From: Candidatus Thorarchaeota archaeon
Lineage (GTDB): Archaea > Asgardarchaeota > Thorarchaeia > Thorarchaeales > Thorarchaeaceae
Length of the DNA: 41,694 nt
Direction: 5' to 3'
Assembly (NCBI GenBank): GCA_016840855.1
Contig: JAEORO010000015.1
Coordinates: 1 to 41,694 of the forward strand
The position numbers and the translations under genes were made by a program. Positions 1,840 to 38,492 of the stretch are shown here, one piece after another. How positions within the stretch are numbered: the stretch's first letter is position 1; each line of letters opens with the position of its first letter. Under the pieces are notes generated by a model. The model did not search any database. It had not been told where the DNA came from and saw only the letters and a program-made list of their open reading frames with translations.

Positions 1840-3237
1840 TCACCTCCAAATACCTGAAAGAGCGCTCTCAACAGCTTGCTGCGTTGCGTTCGTTATCTCA
1901 CGTCTATCTCTTGCATTCAAATCAATATCAAGAGCTAGAATAATTACATCTTCTGTCAAAGTCTTCTTCGGAATCATATCTGATTCCAAGAATGATGTTA
2001 TCGCCTTAGCCGTGCCTGATTGTACAGGTCCATAGAAGAGTGATGCTTGACGCATTGATTCGATTTTTCGTACTGGCATCATCAAGCTGCTAGGTTTTAC
2101 AGCTAGATTTGGTTCAAGAATAACAGTCAAGGCTTCATATCCTATTTTTGGGACAGTCAGAAGTTTAACAAAAGCATGACCGATTTGACTTGTTTTTGGA
2201 CCAGAAACAATACCTACTGATACAGTATCATTAGCAGCACTACTTGTCATAAGATTCGTTGTTTGACCGAAAGCAACTCCTTGACTATCTAGAAACTCAA
2301 GTATCTTGATGTCTTCCTGAACCGGGGCATGCTGAAGTTTTTCAATAACACCCATCTTTTCAAGCTCGATACGAATCTCCTCTTTGATTTCAGGAGTAAG
2401 AGTTCCTCCACTATCGAGAGGCATTCTAGCACGACCAGCATTAATCCCCATCATTCTCAAGGCAGCTTTCACGGGTGGTGCCGCACCATGCTTGAGGACA
2501 AGTCGAGCAAAGGTTTGCGCGGACTTCTGAAGTTCTGAAGCCTCCTCTATTCTTCCATCCTTAGCCAACTTCATGATTTCAAGCCAGACATGAGGTATAA
2601 CATTAGCAGATGCCATAATTGCTGCATTTACTCCGGCTGCAACTGCAGAGAGAAAGCACTCATCTGCACCAATTATGACCTCTATTTTGCCCTTTAGCTT
2701 CTGAATAAGTTCAAGAATATAAGGCACACTTCCGCTGCTGTCTTTTATGCCAACAATATTATCCAATTCTGCTAGATCTTCAACAACATTAGAATTGAGA
2801 ACCCCTAGGGTGCATTGAGGAATATTGTACATGATTACCGGGAGGTTTCCATTATTAGCAACTTGTGCGTAATGCTCATAGTATCCCTTGTCTGTCGGAC
2901 GTAGGTAATAGGGTGAAATGACAAGTGCCGCATCGTATCCTAAATCAGCTGCGAACTTAGTGAGAGCGACGGTTGCACGAGTACTGTGTTGACCTGTACC
3001 CGCAATAATAGGTACACGACCATCAACATATTTCACAGTGAGTTTTAACATCTTCTTGCGTTCTTCTGTTCTTAGATAGGAGAACTCACCAGTAGTGCCT
3101 AACGTTACGACTCCAGTAGCTCCTTTTTCAATAGTATAATCAATCACCTGTTTGTACCCATCTTCACCGATATCACCATCACGCGTAAAGGGGGTCACAA
3201 GAGCGGGCATTACTCCTTCGGGCTTGAACTTCCTCAA
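1840..3237 (-). CDS. DapA-family pyruvate aldolase fused to a degenerate Fae domain, paralog B
   Basis: 465 aa with a TTG start preceded by GGTGAT. The aldolase domain (about 1-300) has GTTGEF (47-52), Tyr137 in YNIPQ and Schiff-base Lys165 in GIKDSSG. As in paralog A, the DHDPS substrate arginine is absent. Residues about 325-462 align with Fae: LEPNLAVKPSSLMMP and FYGPVQSGTAKAI are clearly the family's VKPATLM and FGPAQAAVAKAV segments. In the block that normally reads NEVAHIDLLIGP, this protein has NDTVSVGIVSGP, so the catalytic His is replaced by Ser340, and the Fae C-terminal tail is missing. Its defects are complementary to those of paralog A. The stop codon lies inside the Shine-Dalgarno of paralog A, so the two are coupled. 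A TATA-like TTTATA near 3268-3277 (minus strand) gives a short leader. Confidence 0.85.
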   Translation of the reverse strand: MRKFKPEGVMPALVTPFTRDGDIGEDGYKQVIDYTIEKGATGVVTLGTTGEFSYLRTEERKKMLKLTVKYVDGRVPIIAGTGQHSTRATVALTKFAADLGYDAALVISPYYLRPTDKGYYEHYAQVANNGNLPVIMYNIPQCTLGVLNSNVVEDLAELDNIVGIKDSSGSVPYILELIQKLKGKIEVIIGADECFLSAVAAGVNAAIMASANVIPHVWLEIMKLAKDGRIEEASELQKSAQTFARLVLKHGAAPPVKAALRMMGINAGRARMPLDSGGTLTPEIKEEIRIELEKMGVIEKLQHAPVQEDIKILEFLDSQGVAFGQTTNLMTSSAANDTVSVGIVSGPKTSQIGHAFVKLLTVPKIGYEALTVILEPNLAVKPSSLMMPVRKIESMRQASLFYGPVQSGTAKAITSFLESDMIPKKTLTEDVIILALDIDLNARDRREITNATQQAVESALSGIWR

Positions 3238-31590: not shown

Positions 31591-32403
31591 ATGACAATAC
31601 TCAGGATAGTCCAAGATGCAATAGCAGCGGCTAAGACAGTCATCATTGAGAATCTTGACAAAGCAGCACAAAGAACAGGTGATATGAATCCATTTGGTGA
31701 ACAGACTCTTCTTCTTGATAGAAAAGCGGAGGACACAATTATCGAAGTCTTTTCTGGTTCTAGTACTGATTTTGATATTTTGACTGAGGAAAAAGGTTTC
31801 ATTAAGATTAGAAAAAAACCAGAATACCTAGCAATTATTGACCCAATTGATGGATCAATTAACTTGGAAAGAGGAATCCCGCTTTCTTCTATTGGTGTTT
31901 CAGTAGTCCCCTACAAAGATGCCATGACATCAGATGATATTGAAATTAGCATGATAGATTCACTGTTTACAAATGAAACTTTCACAGCAATTACAGGAAA
32001 AGGCGTGACTAGAAATGGTATTCGAATTCGTCCATCAGCTACTGTTAAACTCCAAGATGCGATAATCTCATGCAACACAAAAAAGACTTGGGACCAAGAC
32101 TATTTGAAGCGGACGATGAGTACTATTAGTGCAGTTCAGGATTTGAGAAGAACTGCGAGTCCACTTTTAGACCTCTGCTGGACAGCTGCAGGATTCATTG
32201 ATGGAATGGTGGACCTAAGAGATATGCTCCCAATAATTCATCTCTGTGGCACACATATGGTTTTTGAAGCTGGTGGTTTTGTATTCGATAAGAATGACAA
32301 TCGATTTTGTGAACCAATAGAACCAAACAAGATGATGAATTTCGTGGCTGCATCCAATGAAGCATTAGCTAGACAAATCTTAGCTAAATTCAAGGGTGAC
32401 TAG
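31591..32403 (+). CDS. Inositol-monophosphatase-family protein, paralog 1
   Basis: 270 aa. FIG/IMPase fold motifs: AED at 46-48, LTEEKGF (E66, E67) and IDPIDGSINLERGIP (D84, D87). The block that in archaeal IMPase/FBPase reads VVDIAAA is here PIIHLCG, so the third metal-site aspartate is His217. The first two metal sites are intact. Normal members hydrolyse inositol 1-phosphate or fructose 1,6-bisphosphate with Mg2+. The change may alter metal use or activity. It is paired with a near-identical gene downstream, apparently from a tandem duplication. Confidence 0.88.
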   Translation: MTILRIVQDAIAAAKTVIIENLDKAAQRTGDMNPFGEQTLLLDRKAEDTIIEVFSGSSTDFDILTEEKGFIKIRKKPEYLAIIDPIDGSINLERGIPLSSIGVSVVPYKDAMTSDDIEISMIDSLFTNETFTAITGKGVTRNGIRIRPSATVKLQDAIISCNTKKTWDQDYLKRTMSTISAVQDLRRTASPLLDLCWTAAGFIDGMVDLRDMLPIIHLCGTHMVFEAGGFVFDKNDNRFCEPIEPNKMMNFVAASNEALARQILAKFKGD

Positions 32404-32460: not shown

Positions 32461-33273
32461 ATGACTCTTCATAGGACCATTCAGGATGCGGTTCAAGGTG
32501 CAAAGCAGGAAATAATTGAGAATCTTGACATTGCTAGAGAACTCACAGGTAAACTAAATCCCTACGGAGACAAAACTCTCACGCTAGATGCTAAAGCGGA
32601 GGATGCCATAATCGATGTACTCACTAGTTCTGGAACTTCTTTTCAGATTCTGACAGAAGAGAGTGGATTCATCAAGAGCGAGCGCAAGCCCGAGTATCTT
32701 GCGCTGATTGATCCAATTGATGGGTCAGCCAATCTCGAACGAGGAATTCCTTTGGTTTCAATTGGCATATCAGTGGTTCCTTTCAATGACCTCATGACAT
32801 CTGACGATGCTGAAATCAGTGTCATTGAATCAGTTTTTACAGATGAAACATATATTGCAGTCACAGATAGAGGTGTGACAAGAAACGGTTTAACCGTTAA
32901 GACATCAGCTCCAATCGATGTCAATAATGCAATAATATCGTATGATACAAAGAAGACTTGGGATATGGATTTCATGAAAAGGTCACTGAGAGCTATTGGT
33001 TCAGTTCATGATATTAGAAGAACTGCAAGTAATCTTCTTGACCTCTGTTGGACAGCAGCTGGTTTCATTGATGGAATGGTAGACCTCAGGAATATGCTGC
33101 CTATCATTCATCTTTGTGGAACACACATGGTATTTACAGCTGGAGGTTTTGTATTGGACGTAAACGGAACTCGCTTTTCAGCTGTCCTTGAACCGAAAAC
33201 TATGATGAATTTTGTTGCAGCATCCAACGAAACACTTGCTCGCCAAATCTTAGATAAATTCAAAGAAAGCTAA
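32461..33273 (+). CDS. Inositol-monophosphatase-family protein, paralog 2
   Basis: 270 aa, the same length as paralog 1 and aligned without gaps, with roughly two thirds identity by eye. It has LTEESGF, IDPIDGSANLERGIP and the same PIIHLCGTHMVF block with His217 in place of the third metal-site Asp. Differences cluster at the surface and in the loop after residue 105. Conservation of the His in both copies argues that it is functional rather than decay. The next gene (Mrp/NBP35) follows after 53 bp. Confidence 0.88.
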   Translation: MTLHRTIQDAVQGAKQEIIENLDIARELTGKLNPYGDKTLTLDAKAEDAIIDVLTSSGTSFQILTEESGFIKSERKPEYLALIDPIDGSANLERGIPLVSIGISVVPFNDLMTSDDAEISVIESVFTDETYIAVTDRGVTRNGLTVKTSAPIDVNNAIISYDTKKTWDMDFMKRSLRAIGSVHDIRRTASNLLDLCWTAAGFIDGMVDLRNMLPIIHLCGTHMVFTAGGFVLDVNGTRFSAVLEPKTMMNFVAASNETLARQILDKFKES

Positions 33274-34167: not shown

Positions 34168-34659
34168 TTATTCTTCTTCAACAATATCATCACCGATGTC
34201 TTCGAAAGGTTCTTCATCTGATTCAGATTCAGTAACTTCTTCGACTTCTTGATCTTCGGCCTCTTCTCTATCCTCTACTACTTCCTCTCGCTCTTCAGTA
34301 TCCAGCTCCTCGACTTCTTCCTCATCAGCATCCTCTAATTGAGGTTCCTGATCTACGACTTCAGTAGTGATGCCTGGTTTCAATCTGAGGATAAACACAT
34401 AGCCAAGAACGAAGCTGACTAGACCAAGCAGAATTGTTAACCATATAGCACCATCCAGACCAAACCATCTGACAGGATCAAGAGCAAGTTGAGTCCTTGG
34501 CCGGCCTAAAAGAAATGCCTGCAACCACATCGGAACTACAAACCCTAATGGAATACAGATTATCACTAGAAGAATGATGGATAATATGATCTCTGCGGTA
34601 TATTTGAGAATTCTTCTTATTGTGCTGTCAACAGCTTTCTTTGCCACAGACAATTTCAC
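34168..34659 (-). CDS. Two-span membrane protein with acidic tail
   Basis: 163 aa, GTG start. Two hydrophobic segments (about 20-45 and 70-93) are followed by a cytoplasmic tail in which about half of residues 100-163 are Glu or Asp. A basic N-terminus (KKAVDSTIRRILKY) suggests the start is inside. I do not recognise a family. The tail may bind basic partners or metal. Confidence 0.7.
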   Translation of the reverse strand: MKLSVAKKAVDSTIRRILKYTAEIILSIILLVIICIPLGFVVPMWLQAFLLGRPRTQLALDPVRWFGLDGAIWLTILLGLVSFVLGYVFILRLKPGITTEVVDQEPQLEDADEEEVEELDTEEREEVVEDREEAEDQEVEEVTESESDEEPFEDIGDDIVEEE

Positions 34660-34773: not shown

Positions 34774-35262
34774 GTGACTGACAAGTACTGCCTTAGATGT
34801 GGGAGCACAAAACTTCAACCTGGTGTCATTTACGACCATTTTCAAGTTTCTAAAAACCCATTAATGGTTTATTGGAAATCCGACTCTATATTCGGTGGAG
34901 ATGCAGTCATACTTAATGCGATTGTCTGTATGTCATGTGGTCATACAGAGTTGGTTGCTGATCTCGGCATATACGCCCCATCAACACGATATGAATGTCC
35001 ACAATGTAAGGCGGTCTATGCTTATTATGAGGAGGATGAAATTTCTCCAAATGTTGTCAAGTGTCAAAATTGCAATAAAACCTTCAATATACCTACACCA
35101 AGGAAGTGTCCCTTGTGCGAAGCAGTGTATCGCTATAGTCAGGAAAAAATCAAAGAAGGTGCAATTATTTGTCAGAATTGCGGGAATCTTTTCTTAATAC
35201 AAGACTCAGGAGAGTCTGATCAACTAATTGATGATATCGAAGCTGGCTTGAAAGAAGAATAA
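34774..35262 (+). CDS. Triple zinc-ribbon protein
   Basis: 162 aa, GTG start with GAGGA upstream. There are three CxxC...CxxC ribbons: C6/C9 with C52/C55, C75/C78 with C97/C100, and C112/C115 with C133/C136. The second and third are repeats of each other (YECPQCKAVYAYYEED / KCPLCEAVYRYSQEK). Proteins of this build are often nucleic-acid or protein binders. Function unknown. Its 3' end meets the end of candidate RNA 1, transcribed toward it. Confidence 0.78.
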   Translation: MTDKYCLRCGSTKLQPGVIYDHFQVSKNPLMVYWKSDSIFGGDAVILNAIVCMSCGHTELVADLGIYAPSTRYECPQCKAVYAYYEEDEISPNVVKCQNCNKTFNIPTPRKCPLCEAVYRYSQEKIKEGAIICQNCGNLFLIQDSGESDQLIDDIEAGLKEE

Positions 35263-35380
35263 AGAGAGGAGGAGGGGGCCCGTGAAAACGAGCGAGTAGT
35301 TCGCCAGTCGGGTCGGACGTTTTTTGAGAGAGGGAGGGAGTGACAGTATTCATGATGGTCGCGATTCGGACCCCCTGTCC
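35262..35380 (-). ncRNA. Candidate small structured RNA 1
   Basis: A GC-rich island in AT-rich DNA. On the minus strand a 9-bp closing helix AGGGGGUCC / GGGCCCCCU joins 35376-35368 to 35281-35273. The same site on the plus strand would contain an A-C mismatch, so the minus strand is preferred. Inside is a small GCGA-loop-UCGC hairpin (35304-35292). A TATA box (CTTATATGC) is centred near 35406, 26 nt before GGACAGGGGG, the likely start. The 3' end runs into CUCCUCCUCUCUUUAUUCUUCUUU-like pyrimidine sequence, a suitable terminator. No convincing ORF. Not a tRNA or a known family that I recognise. Confidence 0.5.
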
Positions 35381-35402
35381 AAAATATAATATGAATTATT
35401 AG

Positions 35403-35409
35403 CATATAA
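35403..35409 (-). promoter_or_regulatory. TATA box of candidate RNA 1
   Basis: TTATATG on the minus strand, 30 nt from the closing helix of candidate RNA 1. Candidate RNA 2 has the same spacing. A second AT-rich element (35381-35390) is too close to serve the same start. Confidence 0.45.
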
Positions 35410-35474
35410 GGGTTATTCATATCCTGTTAGGGGTCTGAGGTGGAGAATTTTTCAACCATTGAACAGTTTGCGTT

Positions 35475-36431
35475 TCATGCTAACTTCTTTAGATCGATCT
35501 CAACTGCACTCAATTCTTTGTTCTTAATCTTATATTCCAAGGAGGTCAAGTTTCTCATCAGGGATTTCTCATAAACAACATAAACAACAGAAATGGGACC
35601 TAAAGCGAGTATTGGCGAAACAATTACTGCAGCCACAGGAATGAGGAAGATAAGCATAGTAAAACCACCAGGGGGAGGAGATGTCAGCATAAACTGGTAC
35701 CATTCAACGGTCTGGAAGATTGTAAAAACGTAGGCGACAACCGTTGAAATTCCAGCAAAACCTTTCAACATTTTAAGATACCAATTTCCCACGCCTTCAA
35801 TATCTGCGGTCGTCCTTGGTCTAGTTTTGAACTCACAGACTAGTCCTTTGTCTTGCATAAGCCACATAGGAGTAAATAGCAATACGATGAAACAAGAGAG
35901 TAGTAGAAGTATAAACAAAATAGCTAGACTGGTGACGATTGTTTCAGCCTCAGAAGCTATTTCACCGAAACTCTCGGACACAAAGATAGCATTTGCGAAA
36001 CTCCTGATATTTGAGATTGAATAGGAGATGCCAAGAGCAGCGAAAGCAGGCAGAATCATTCGTTTTGGTTGAGGAACAGAGATTTCGCGTTTATCAAAAT
36101 CCTGAATGTAGTAATTGTAGTTATTGTTTGTAAGATAACGGTGTAGCTTCCACAAGAACATGGATAATGATGGTGAAGCCACATAAACCAAGATTCCAAT
36201 CAATAATGAGAGAACATAAAGCCAAATGAAATCAAACAGAATGTTTCCGGGCAAAATCCGATATATACCAAGATTGGTATCAAATGGGAAGGCACCCATG
36301 AAGGTGAATACAACTGTCACAAATATTGTGATGAACACCAGTATTTGTATAGGAATCACAACTCTCCAGGAAACCTTTGGTCGTATTTCATCAACTGTGG
36401 ATAGAGTGCCATTGTTAGTCAGTAGATTCAA
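35475..36431 (-). CDS. Polytopic membrane protein of unknown function
   Basis: 318 aa with about six membrane spans (near 22-46, 62-88, 126-146, 165-192, 222-242 and 252-286). The C-terminal 30 residues are charged and cytoplasmic. The TTG at 36431 directly follows GGAG, an unusual spacing, so the true start may lie a few codons downstream. No transport signature is recognised. It is flanked on both sides by similar candidate small RNAs. Confidence 0.65.
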   Translation of the reverse strand: MNLLTNNGTLSTVDEIRPKVSWRVVIPIQILVFITIFVTVVFTFMGAFPFDTNLGIYRILPGNILFDFIWLYVLSLLIGILVYVASPSLSMFLWKLHRYLTNNNYNYYIQDFDKREISVPQPKRMILPAFAALGISYSISNIRSFANAIFVSESFGEIASEAETIVTSLAILFILLLLSCFIVLLFTPMWLMQDKGLVCEFKTRPRTTADIEGVGNWYLKMLKGFAGISTVVAYVFTIFQTVEWYQFMLTSPPPGGFTMLIFLIPVAAVIVSPILALGPISVVYVVYEKSLMRNLTSLEYKIKNKELSAVEIDLKKLA

Positions 36432-36656
36432 CTCCTATGTTATTCTACGCGAAGGTACTGGTAGAATTTATGCTCATCTCGTATAGGTTTACTAGTGGAC
36501 GGTTCCATTAACTAATTCCTCCATTATCTCTTGAGATCCTTATCCTAACATAGTAAATGGTACTTTTCTTGCTAGTTTGTCAGCAATCTACGGCTGCGAA
36601 AGATTACACGGACCATAAATTCGAGATATCGAAAAATCATGAAGTCATGATTAAGG

Positions 36657-36738
36657 GAAAAATGAGGAGGGAGAGAAGGGGGCCGTAGAGAACATGGAAG
36701 GAGGAGAGAACTTCTGAGAGAGAAAGGCCCCCTGGCCC
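36657..36738 (-). ncRNA. Candidate small structured RNA 2
   Basis: Transcribed leftward from about 36738 (GGGCCAGGGGGCC). A perfect 8-bp closing helix AGGGGGCC / GGCCCCCU joins 36733-36726 to 36684-36677. The 41-nt loop is almost all pyrimidine and contains CUCUCCUCCUUCC, which is complementary to Shine-Dalgarno sequence. After the helix comes UUCUCUCCCUCCUCA and a T6 run at 36657-36662, a good archaeal terminator. Start, helix and TATA have the same spacing as in candidate RNA 1. Alternatively it could be a leader/attenuator of the membrane protein gene at 35475-36431. Confidence 0.5.
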
Positions 36739-36755
36739 TATTGATATTAATGTTT

Positions 36756-36770
36756 AGAATATATTTAAGC
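36756..36770 (-). promoter_or_regulatory. Strong TATA box of candidate RNA 2
   Basis: GCTTAAATATATTCT on the minus strand, centred near 36763, about 25 nt before the expected start at 36738. It is the best TATA match in this part of the window and no protein gene on that strand starts near it. Confidence 0.5.
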
Positions 36771-37686: not shown

Positions 37687-38042
37687 ACTTGTAATGTCTT
37701 GCATTTTCAGTTAATATTCAAAGCAGAGGTGGAACACCCTCAGATATTTTACTTTCCAAAATGGAACGAGAATTTCGGGGACACAGGAGGAAAATTGAGA
37801 TTCGCATGGTTGCTTGAGGAGGAGAGAAATATTGGTATTTCAGGAGAGAACCTCCCGCGCCCCATATTGAAATTTTTTAAAATATCTACTTAAATATTGT
37901 GTTAAATACAAATAAATTTGGATAAATTCAGATAATCACAATGATCTACCACGTATCAGAAAATACAATGAATTTGAAATATCTTCTCCGGATAACGAGT
38001 TTCTCCCTTCGATGACAAAGAAGATGATAGAAAATCAGGAAA
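37687..38042. other. 356-bp region without a supported protein gene
   Basis: It lies between the hypothetical gene ending at 37686 and the minus-strand gene ending at 38043. A 64-codon plus-strand frame (37699-37893) lacks a ribosome site and family features. The left half holds candidate RNA 3 on the minus strand. The right half (37880-38042) is very AT-rich without recognised signals. Confidence 0.5.
37770..37865 (-). ncRNA. Possible small RNA 3, related to candidates 1 and 2
   Basis: On the minus strand, GGGGCGCGGGAGG begins near 37863, about 30 nt from a TATA-like TATTTAAGTA (around 37893). GGGAG-GUUCU-CUCCU forms a short hairpin, and the decamer GUUCUCUCCU also occurs in candidate RNA 2. 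A pyrimidine stretch UUUCUCUCCUCCUC follows. The closing helix is only UGGGG/CCCCG (near 37776-37780), much weaker than in the other two. The 3' end is not defined. Confidence 0.3.
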
Positions 38043-38492
38043 CTACATCTGTGGTATCATGTTCATAACGATTGGCGCATAACCATGGGAAAAAACCTCG
38101 ACGACAAATGGATCACTTGCTTCTGCGACTTTGGTCCACGCACCATTATCCCGGCGATAATAAGCATATTGTGAAGAGCTACTACGAATCTCGATGATGG
38201 ACTTTGAAGGGATTTTATCAAGATCAGCAACTTCGAGCTTTCGATTACTTTTATGCTCATTATCTTCGGGTTTTGATAGAAAGACAGGAAATATACTACC
38301 AGCGTTGGGCAAGAGCAAAGCTACATGAGGCCGGTCAAGAGAGTTCCATCTCTTTGGAATAGGTGGATAACGGCATGTGAACGCACCTGTCGCAGAGCGA
38401 AGAACCAGATATGTACCCTCATCTATTGTCATCGAGTCAGTTACCTCTAGCGTGCTTTGCGAATGTTGGGATATTCCTGTACTGATTGTCAC
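38043..38492 (-). CDS. Hypothetical protein
   Basis: 149 aa, GTG start. Mostly predicted beta strands and turns, with strands such as TYLVLRSATGAFTCRYPP, HVALLLPNAGSIFPVFL and FVVEVFSHGYAPIVMNM. No signal peptide or membrane span. No family is recognised. TATA (minus, 38512-38523) is centred 25 nt before the GTG, so the mRNA is probably leaderless. Confidence 0.6.
   Translation of the reverse strand: MTISTGISQHSQSTLEVTDSMTIDEGTYLVLRSATGAFTCRYPPIPKRWNSLDRPHVALLLPNAGSIFPVFLSKPEDNEHKSNRKLEVADLDKIPSKSIIEIRSSSSQYAYYRRDNGAWTKVAEASDPFVVEVFSHGYAPIVMNMIPQM

Follow-up and report, generated by a model that had tools for sequence, protein, structure and literature searches.

Comparative analysis of a 41,694-nt stretch of a Candidatus Thorarchaeota archaeon genome (contig JAEORO010000015.1; hereafter, the window) indicates that it almost certainly carries three conserved genes for small noncoding RNAs, denoted c1, c2, and c3, which are probably regulators. 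The genes, their helices and promoters, the synteny, and the palindrome described below emerge from sequence analysis, the expression and transcript ends of c1–c3 are predictions, and the genomes compared are metagenome assemblies. Taken as a whole, the best explanation, which we consider likely, is a trio of RNA genes with their own promoters in one locus, with clamped CU-rich loops and a decoy mechanism. Thorarchaeota belong to the Asgard archaea, which are related to the ancestor of eukaryotes. Given the strong covariation evidence, the defined locus, the promoters, and a candidate operator, the trio provides a concrete entry to RNA-based regulation in eukaryote-related archaea.

Two conserved RNA genes on the minus strand

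A sequence-only reading of the window had proposed two GC-rich RNA candidates of the same layout on the minus strand, c2 and c1, on either side of a membrane-protein gene. Both candidates are real: a BLASTN search of 59 related genomes detected both in most genomes of the genus, conserved far beyond chance, with E-values as low as 1e-60 for congeneric species; at this sensitivity, neither was detected in other genera of the family. Their components are as follows.

35254..35381, minus strand: RNA c1, ~105–128 nt, from GGACAGGGGGUCC to a pyrimidine/T-rich tail; kept in 15 of 16 genus genomes and 10 further genera
35404..35410, minus strand: c1 TATA box, CTTATAT; invariant in the genus alignment, 34 nt before the first helix base
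35367..35376, minus strand: 5' arm of the c1 closing helix, AGGGGGUCCG (A35376 to G35367); arm-swap test
35273..35282, minus strand: 3' arm of the c1 closing helix, CGGGCCCCCU (C35282 to U35273); arm-swap test
36657..36740, minus strand: RNA c2, ~70–85 nt; kept in 13 of the 16 genomes of the genus and in another 11 genera
36762..36769, minus strand: c2 TATA box, CTTAAATA; conserved, 36 nt before the first helix base
36726..36733, minus strand: 5' arm of the c2 closing helix, AGGGGGCC (A36733 to C36726); pair changes, see below
36677..36684, minus strand: 3' arm of the c2 closing helix, GGCCCCCU (G36684 to U36677); pair-change count and arm-swap test
36687..36711, minus strand: c2 loop core, GUUCUCUCCUCCUUCCAUGUUCUCU (UUCUCUCUCCUCCUUCCnGCGUUCU in other genera); almost invariant from genus to genus, unlike the helix sequence

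The TATA-to-helix distance, previously given as 30 nt for both RNAs, was roughly right, as the spacings of 34 and 36 nt indicate. Among the homologues, all 35 c1 sequences and 29 of 34 c2 sequences have a TATA-like hexamer that precedes the helix by 26–34 nt; in most of the remaining c2 sequences, it is slightly farther away. The genus alignment keeps the TATA box, its spacing to the helix, both helix arms, the CU-rich loop, and the pyrimidine tail. By contrast, no conserved reading frame was found, the spacing between the conserved elements differing by frame-breaking lengths among close relatives. Together with the compensatory helix changes and the synteny described below, these features strongly support the proposal that c1 and c2 are functional noncoding RNAs on the minus strand.

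Helices that change in sequence but remain paired

The arms of both closing helices were found to be paired on the minus strand, as proposed, with one G-U pair in c1. A simple scan of the 41.7-kb window for GC-rich 7-base arms that pair perfectly and are no more than 160 nt apart matched c2 alone, c1 being missed because of its G-U pair. Single-sequence folding yielded modest z-scores on the minus strand (−2.45 for c1 and −2.57 for c2) and a stronger one, −3.76, for c2 on the plus strand, so that such folding would prove neither the existence of the RNAs nor their direction.

The evidence comes instead from relatives. Whole helices have been exchanged for other sequences yet are still paired, as exemplified by the c2 arms of G021 (ACUCAAGAGUC/GGCUCUUGAGU) and the c1 arms of G016 (GAGCUCGCAGG/CCUGUGAGCUC). 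Six of the 8 c2 pairs have changed on both sides, a value reached by 0 of 500 shuffles. In an alignment-free test, the 5' arm of each RNA was paired with the 3' arm of every other RNA; mean energies of own versus foreign arms were −22.8 versus −16.0 kcal/mol for c1, −22.0 versus −18.3 kcal/mol for c2, and −29.9 versus −20.8 kcal/mol for c3 (see below). For each of the three RNAs, own arms were better than 20,000 of 20,000 permutations, a count that is not an exact probability, as related sequences share arms. Relatedness, however, cannot explain why paired arms are exchanged as a whole from one genus to another.

The single G-U pair of c1 had been taken to support the direction of the RNAs, and the argument holds in aggregate. 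Across 92 homologous RNAs, the predicted strand has 69 G-U helix pairs versus 35 on the other strand, and it is the strand with the stronger helix in 65 cases versus 26.

A third RNA and a palindrome between divergent promoters

The third RNA, the divergent promoter with its palindrome, and the absence of the membrane-protein gene from several relatives all go beyond the initial reading. RNA c3 was first revealed by unexpected opposite-strand matches of the c1 covariance model and comprises the following elements.

37777..37863, minus strand: RNA c3, of the same build as c1 and c2; covariance model (E 1.7e-14 in the window) and family-wide search
37889..37894, minus strand: c3 TATA-like TTTAAG, 31 nt before the helix; adjoins a conserved CACAAT element
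37851..37863, minus strand: 5' arm of the c3 closing helix, GGGGCGCGGGAGG; covariance model and arm-swap test
37777..37790, minus strand: 3' arm of the c3 closing helix, CCUCCUGUGUCCCC, with a bulged U; covariance model and arm-swap test

The c3 model matches in 27 of 47 family genomes. The helix is 12–19 bp long, and c3 has a TATA of its own, with a TATA-like hexamer 26–34 nt before the helix in 21 of 24 homologues. In other genomes, c3 points away from c2, which is followed by c1 in the same direction, the whole being upstream of F2, a gene for a small membrane protein. The window departs from this layout in that its c3 is inverted; of 22 loci, 21 have the divergent arrangement of c3 and c2.

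The stretch separating the c3 promoter from that of c2 contains a palindrome, TTGCGANNNTCGCAA, either exact or slightly mismatched. It recurs ~68 bp from where c3 starts, and a further copy, at ~37 bp and beside the c3 TATA, is frequent. A search of 47 genomes gave 13 places with the perfect palindrome, 5 of them in the c1–c3 locus, versus 1 place for the reversed control; the other sites are mostly within genes. Not every member of the window's genus has it in clear form: in some species, and in the window itself, the palindrome is weak or absent. Judged by its position and recurrence, it is a candidate operator and points to one regulator. The palindrome is also found before a membrane-protein gene without a Pfam match in two related species (L205 and L206, ~1501 in both), a gene that may thus be controlled by this regulator too.

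One locus across the family

Covariance models built from the genus, for which E-values are rough given their short calibration, recover c2 and c1 in other genera, again in tandem before F2. By inspection and models combined, c1 is found in 11, c2 in 12, and c3 in 10 of the 13 sampled genera of the family; all 13 have at least 1 member of the trio and most have all three. There is one c1/c2/c3 locus per genome. Gene maps were compared for 15 genomes: wherever both RNAs are on one contig, c2 and c1 keep their order and strand and are flanked by the same two genes, F3 (38043–38492 in the window) and F2. Two neighboring genes bear on the interpretation.

34168..34659, minus strand: F2, small membrane protein with an acidic tail; constant downstream neighbor of c1; in most relatives, it has a TATA to itself, GTTTTAAAGG
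35475..36431, minus strand: F17, membrane protein without a Pfam match; found in the c2–c1 interval of some species only, outside the RNA system

The implied tie between the RNAs and F17 did not withstand this comparison. The c2–c1 interval is empty in G001, G004, G007, and G010, where the two RNAs are directly adjacent, holds a membrane protein in the window, G002, G003, and G006, and holds an opposite-strand 510-aa protein in G005, G008 (split), G012, and G013. As the content of the interval varies among genomes, F17 is incidental, an insertion rather than a partner of the RNA system.

The c2 covariance model gave no convincing match outside the Thorarchaeota family. When GTDB genomes were searched with the pattern of the c2 core, matches outside Thorarchaeota (Archaeoglobaceae, Thermofilum, and bacteria) lacked the helix in those inspected and look like chance, and covariance matches in two genomes of other Asgard families (G183 and G192) fall inside long open frames and are likewise attributed to chance. 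The sole candidate outside Thorarchaeota is an intergenic c3-like element in another Asgard family (L238, 1219–1329, minus strand; G052:C21), with an 11-bp helix, a CCUCC loop, and an E-value of 5e-5, adjoining an eL22-like ribosomal protein gene.

Loops and possible modes of action

In the proposed architecture, a GC-rich helix of free sequence would clamp the ends of the RNA and expose a CU-rich loop, with a pyrimidine, often T-rich, tail after it. Open CUCC/UCUC repeats are present in the loops of all three RNAs; the CUCC tetramers are predicted to be ~85–88% unpaired, and the CUCC/UCUC motifs are ~threefold more frequent than in loops shuffled at equal base content, a control that leaves dinucleotide bias. 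In addition, each RNA has a longer core specific to it, e.g., CUCCUCAAGCAACCAAGCGAACC in c3. Because the sequence of the helix is free and that of the loop is fixed, we infer that the loop serves as a recognition surface and would be the conserved working part of the molecule.

We propose that c1–c3 are probably co-regulated, the palindrome that separates the divergent promoters of c3 and c2 serving as operator, and that, through their repeated CUCC/UCUC motifs, they may bind a pyrimidine-tract RNA-binding protein as decoys or scaffolds. Induction of the trio would then free the mRNA targets of that protein, as CsrB and RsmZ do for CsrA and RsmA. CsrB/CsrC and RsmX/Y/Z are protein-sequestering sister RNAs with a repeated loop motif, GGA, and are co-regulated through a palindromic upstream element. 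The Thorarchaeal RNAs resemble them in the repeated short motif in exposed loops (relative to the composition-shuffled control) and in the palindromic upstream element, but differ in the motif, CUCC/UCUC rather than GGA, in their archaeal promoters, and in that the partner protein is putative. We rank a decoy or scaffold first because of the motif repeated in three apparently co-regulated sister RNAs, and offer such protein binding as a tentative, if plausible, mechanism; one point against it is that a pure repeated-motif decoy does not need the long RNA-specific cores. That the trio is an archaeal counterpart of Csr/Rsm, co-regulated class-wide and titrating an Asgard pyrimidine-tract RNA-binding protein, is a bolder and unlikely proposition.

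The main rival of the decoy model is that c1–c3 are trans-acting antisense RNAs, whose CU-rich loops would use short seeds to pair with purine-rich sites on mRNAs, in the manner of LhrC of Listeria, RsaE of S. aureus, and sRNA162 and sRNA41 of M. mazei at ribosome-binding sites. The open loops do carry CCUCC and UCUC, and a precedent for a multi-copy, co-regulated family is LhrC of Listeria monocytogenes, several sister sRNAs under one regulator, each transcribed from its own promoter and bearing redundant CU-rich motifs in its loops and single-stranded stretches (PMC4132741). The likeness extends to the sister RNAs, their own promoters, and the CU-rich loop motifs, with co-regulation of c1–c3 being presumed, whereas sequence and structure are unrelated, c1–c3 having one long closing helix. 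Archaeal precedents are sRNA162 and sRNA41 of M. mazei, which mask ribosome-binding sites (PMC3510493, PMC5867862); they are intergenic sRNAs with exposed single-stranded regions, likened to c1–c3 by behavior.

What weighs against antisense action is the nature of the available targets. Upstream of 271 Thorarchaeal genes, the translation-start consensus is AGGTGA; GGTG occurs 40 times versus 8 expected, whereas GGAGG, with 5 occurrences versus 3.75 expected, is not enriched. The loops are complementary to GGAGG-type sites, so that CCUCC would not mask the Shine–Dalgarno (SD) sites of these genomes, and a simple anti-SD role, of the LhrC/RsaE kind, is contradicted. LhrC differs on the same count, its UCCC motif being of the kind that binds the bacterial SD. 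Neither were long antisense targets found: the c2 core has about as many complementary sites as its reversed control, and for the c3 core the long complements are c3 itself, besides one candidate site in G023. These results leave protein binding, as a decoy or within a ribonucleoprotein (RNP), or short-seed pairing at non-SD sites; antisense action by short seeds is possible, if somewhat doubtful.

Y RNAs, which associate with Ro60, consist of a closing stem, a pyrimidine-rich loop, and a T-rich end, a layout shared by c1–c3. As Y-RNA-like housekeeping RNP components with a dedicated protein, the three RNAs would be expected to be retained class-wide at one locus per genome, as they are. However, no TROVE/Ro60 protein was detected in any of the 47 genomes by a search that recovers the control Deinobacterium, on which Y RNA identity fails, and three RNAs under operator-like control look regulatory, making a housekeeping role of this kind quite unlikely.

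It is highly improbable that c2 and c1 are cis-acting leaders of F17 and F2, respectively. Although F2 follows c1 in the same direction in nearly all loci, it has its own TATA near its start, and an oppositely directed gene separates the two in the window, G011, G012, and G015; c3 is divergent, and F17 is so often missing that a leader role for it is rejected. Finally, inverted repeats do surround purine/pyrimidine-rich DNA here, but an origin in mobile-element repeats or low-complexity purine tracts is refuted, its probability being negligible, by the single copy per genome at one syntenic place, the compensatory arm replacement, and the TATA at fixed spacing.

Relation to known RNA families

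Under gathering and E-value thresholds, Rfam 15 returned no family for these RNAs, Y RNAs included, and only two lncRNA matches, far below gathering scores. Papers on Asgard and archaeal RNAs, a literature covered incompletely, describe nothing similar, and we found no conserved regulatory RNA family of Thorarchaeota in either source. The box C (RUGAUGA) to box D (CUGA) arrangement of C/D box guide RNAs is present in 0 of the 92 RNAs. The nearest systems by behavior are LhrC, sRNA162, and CsrB/RsmZ.

Other genes of the window

A zinc-ribbon protein is encoded on the plus strand at 34774–35262, its stop codon abutting the c1 tail on the opposite strand; members of this family are located between c1 and F2 in only some species. 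Farther away, tandem duplicated inositol-monophosphatase-like genes, named from sequence, occupy 31591–32403 and 32461–33273 on the plus strand, where the mapped relatives have one such gene. Two adjacent proteins encoded on the minus strand (359–1849 and 1840–3237) each consist of a dihydrodipicolinate-synthase domain fused to a formaldehyde-activating-enzyme (Fae) domain, an unusual fusion that occurs here in tandem.
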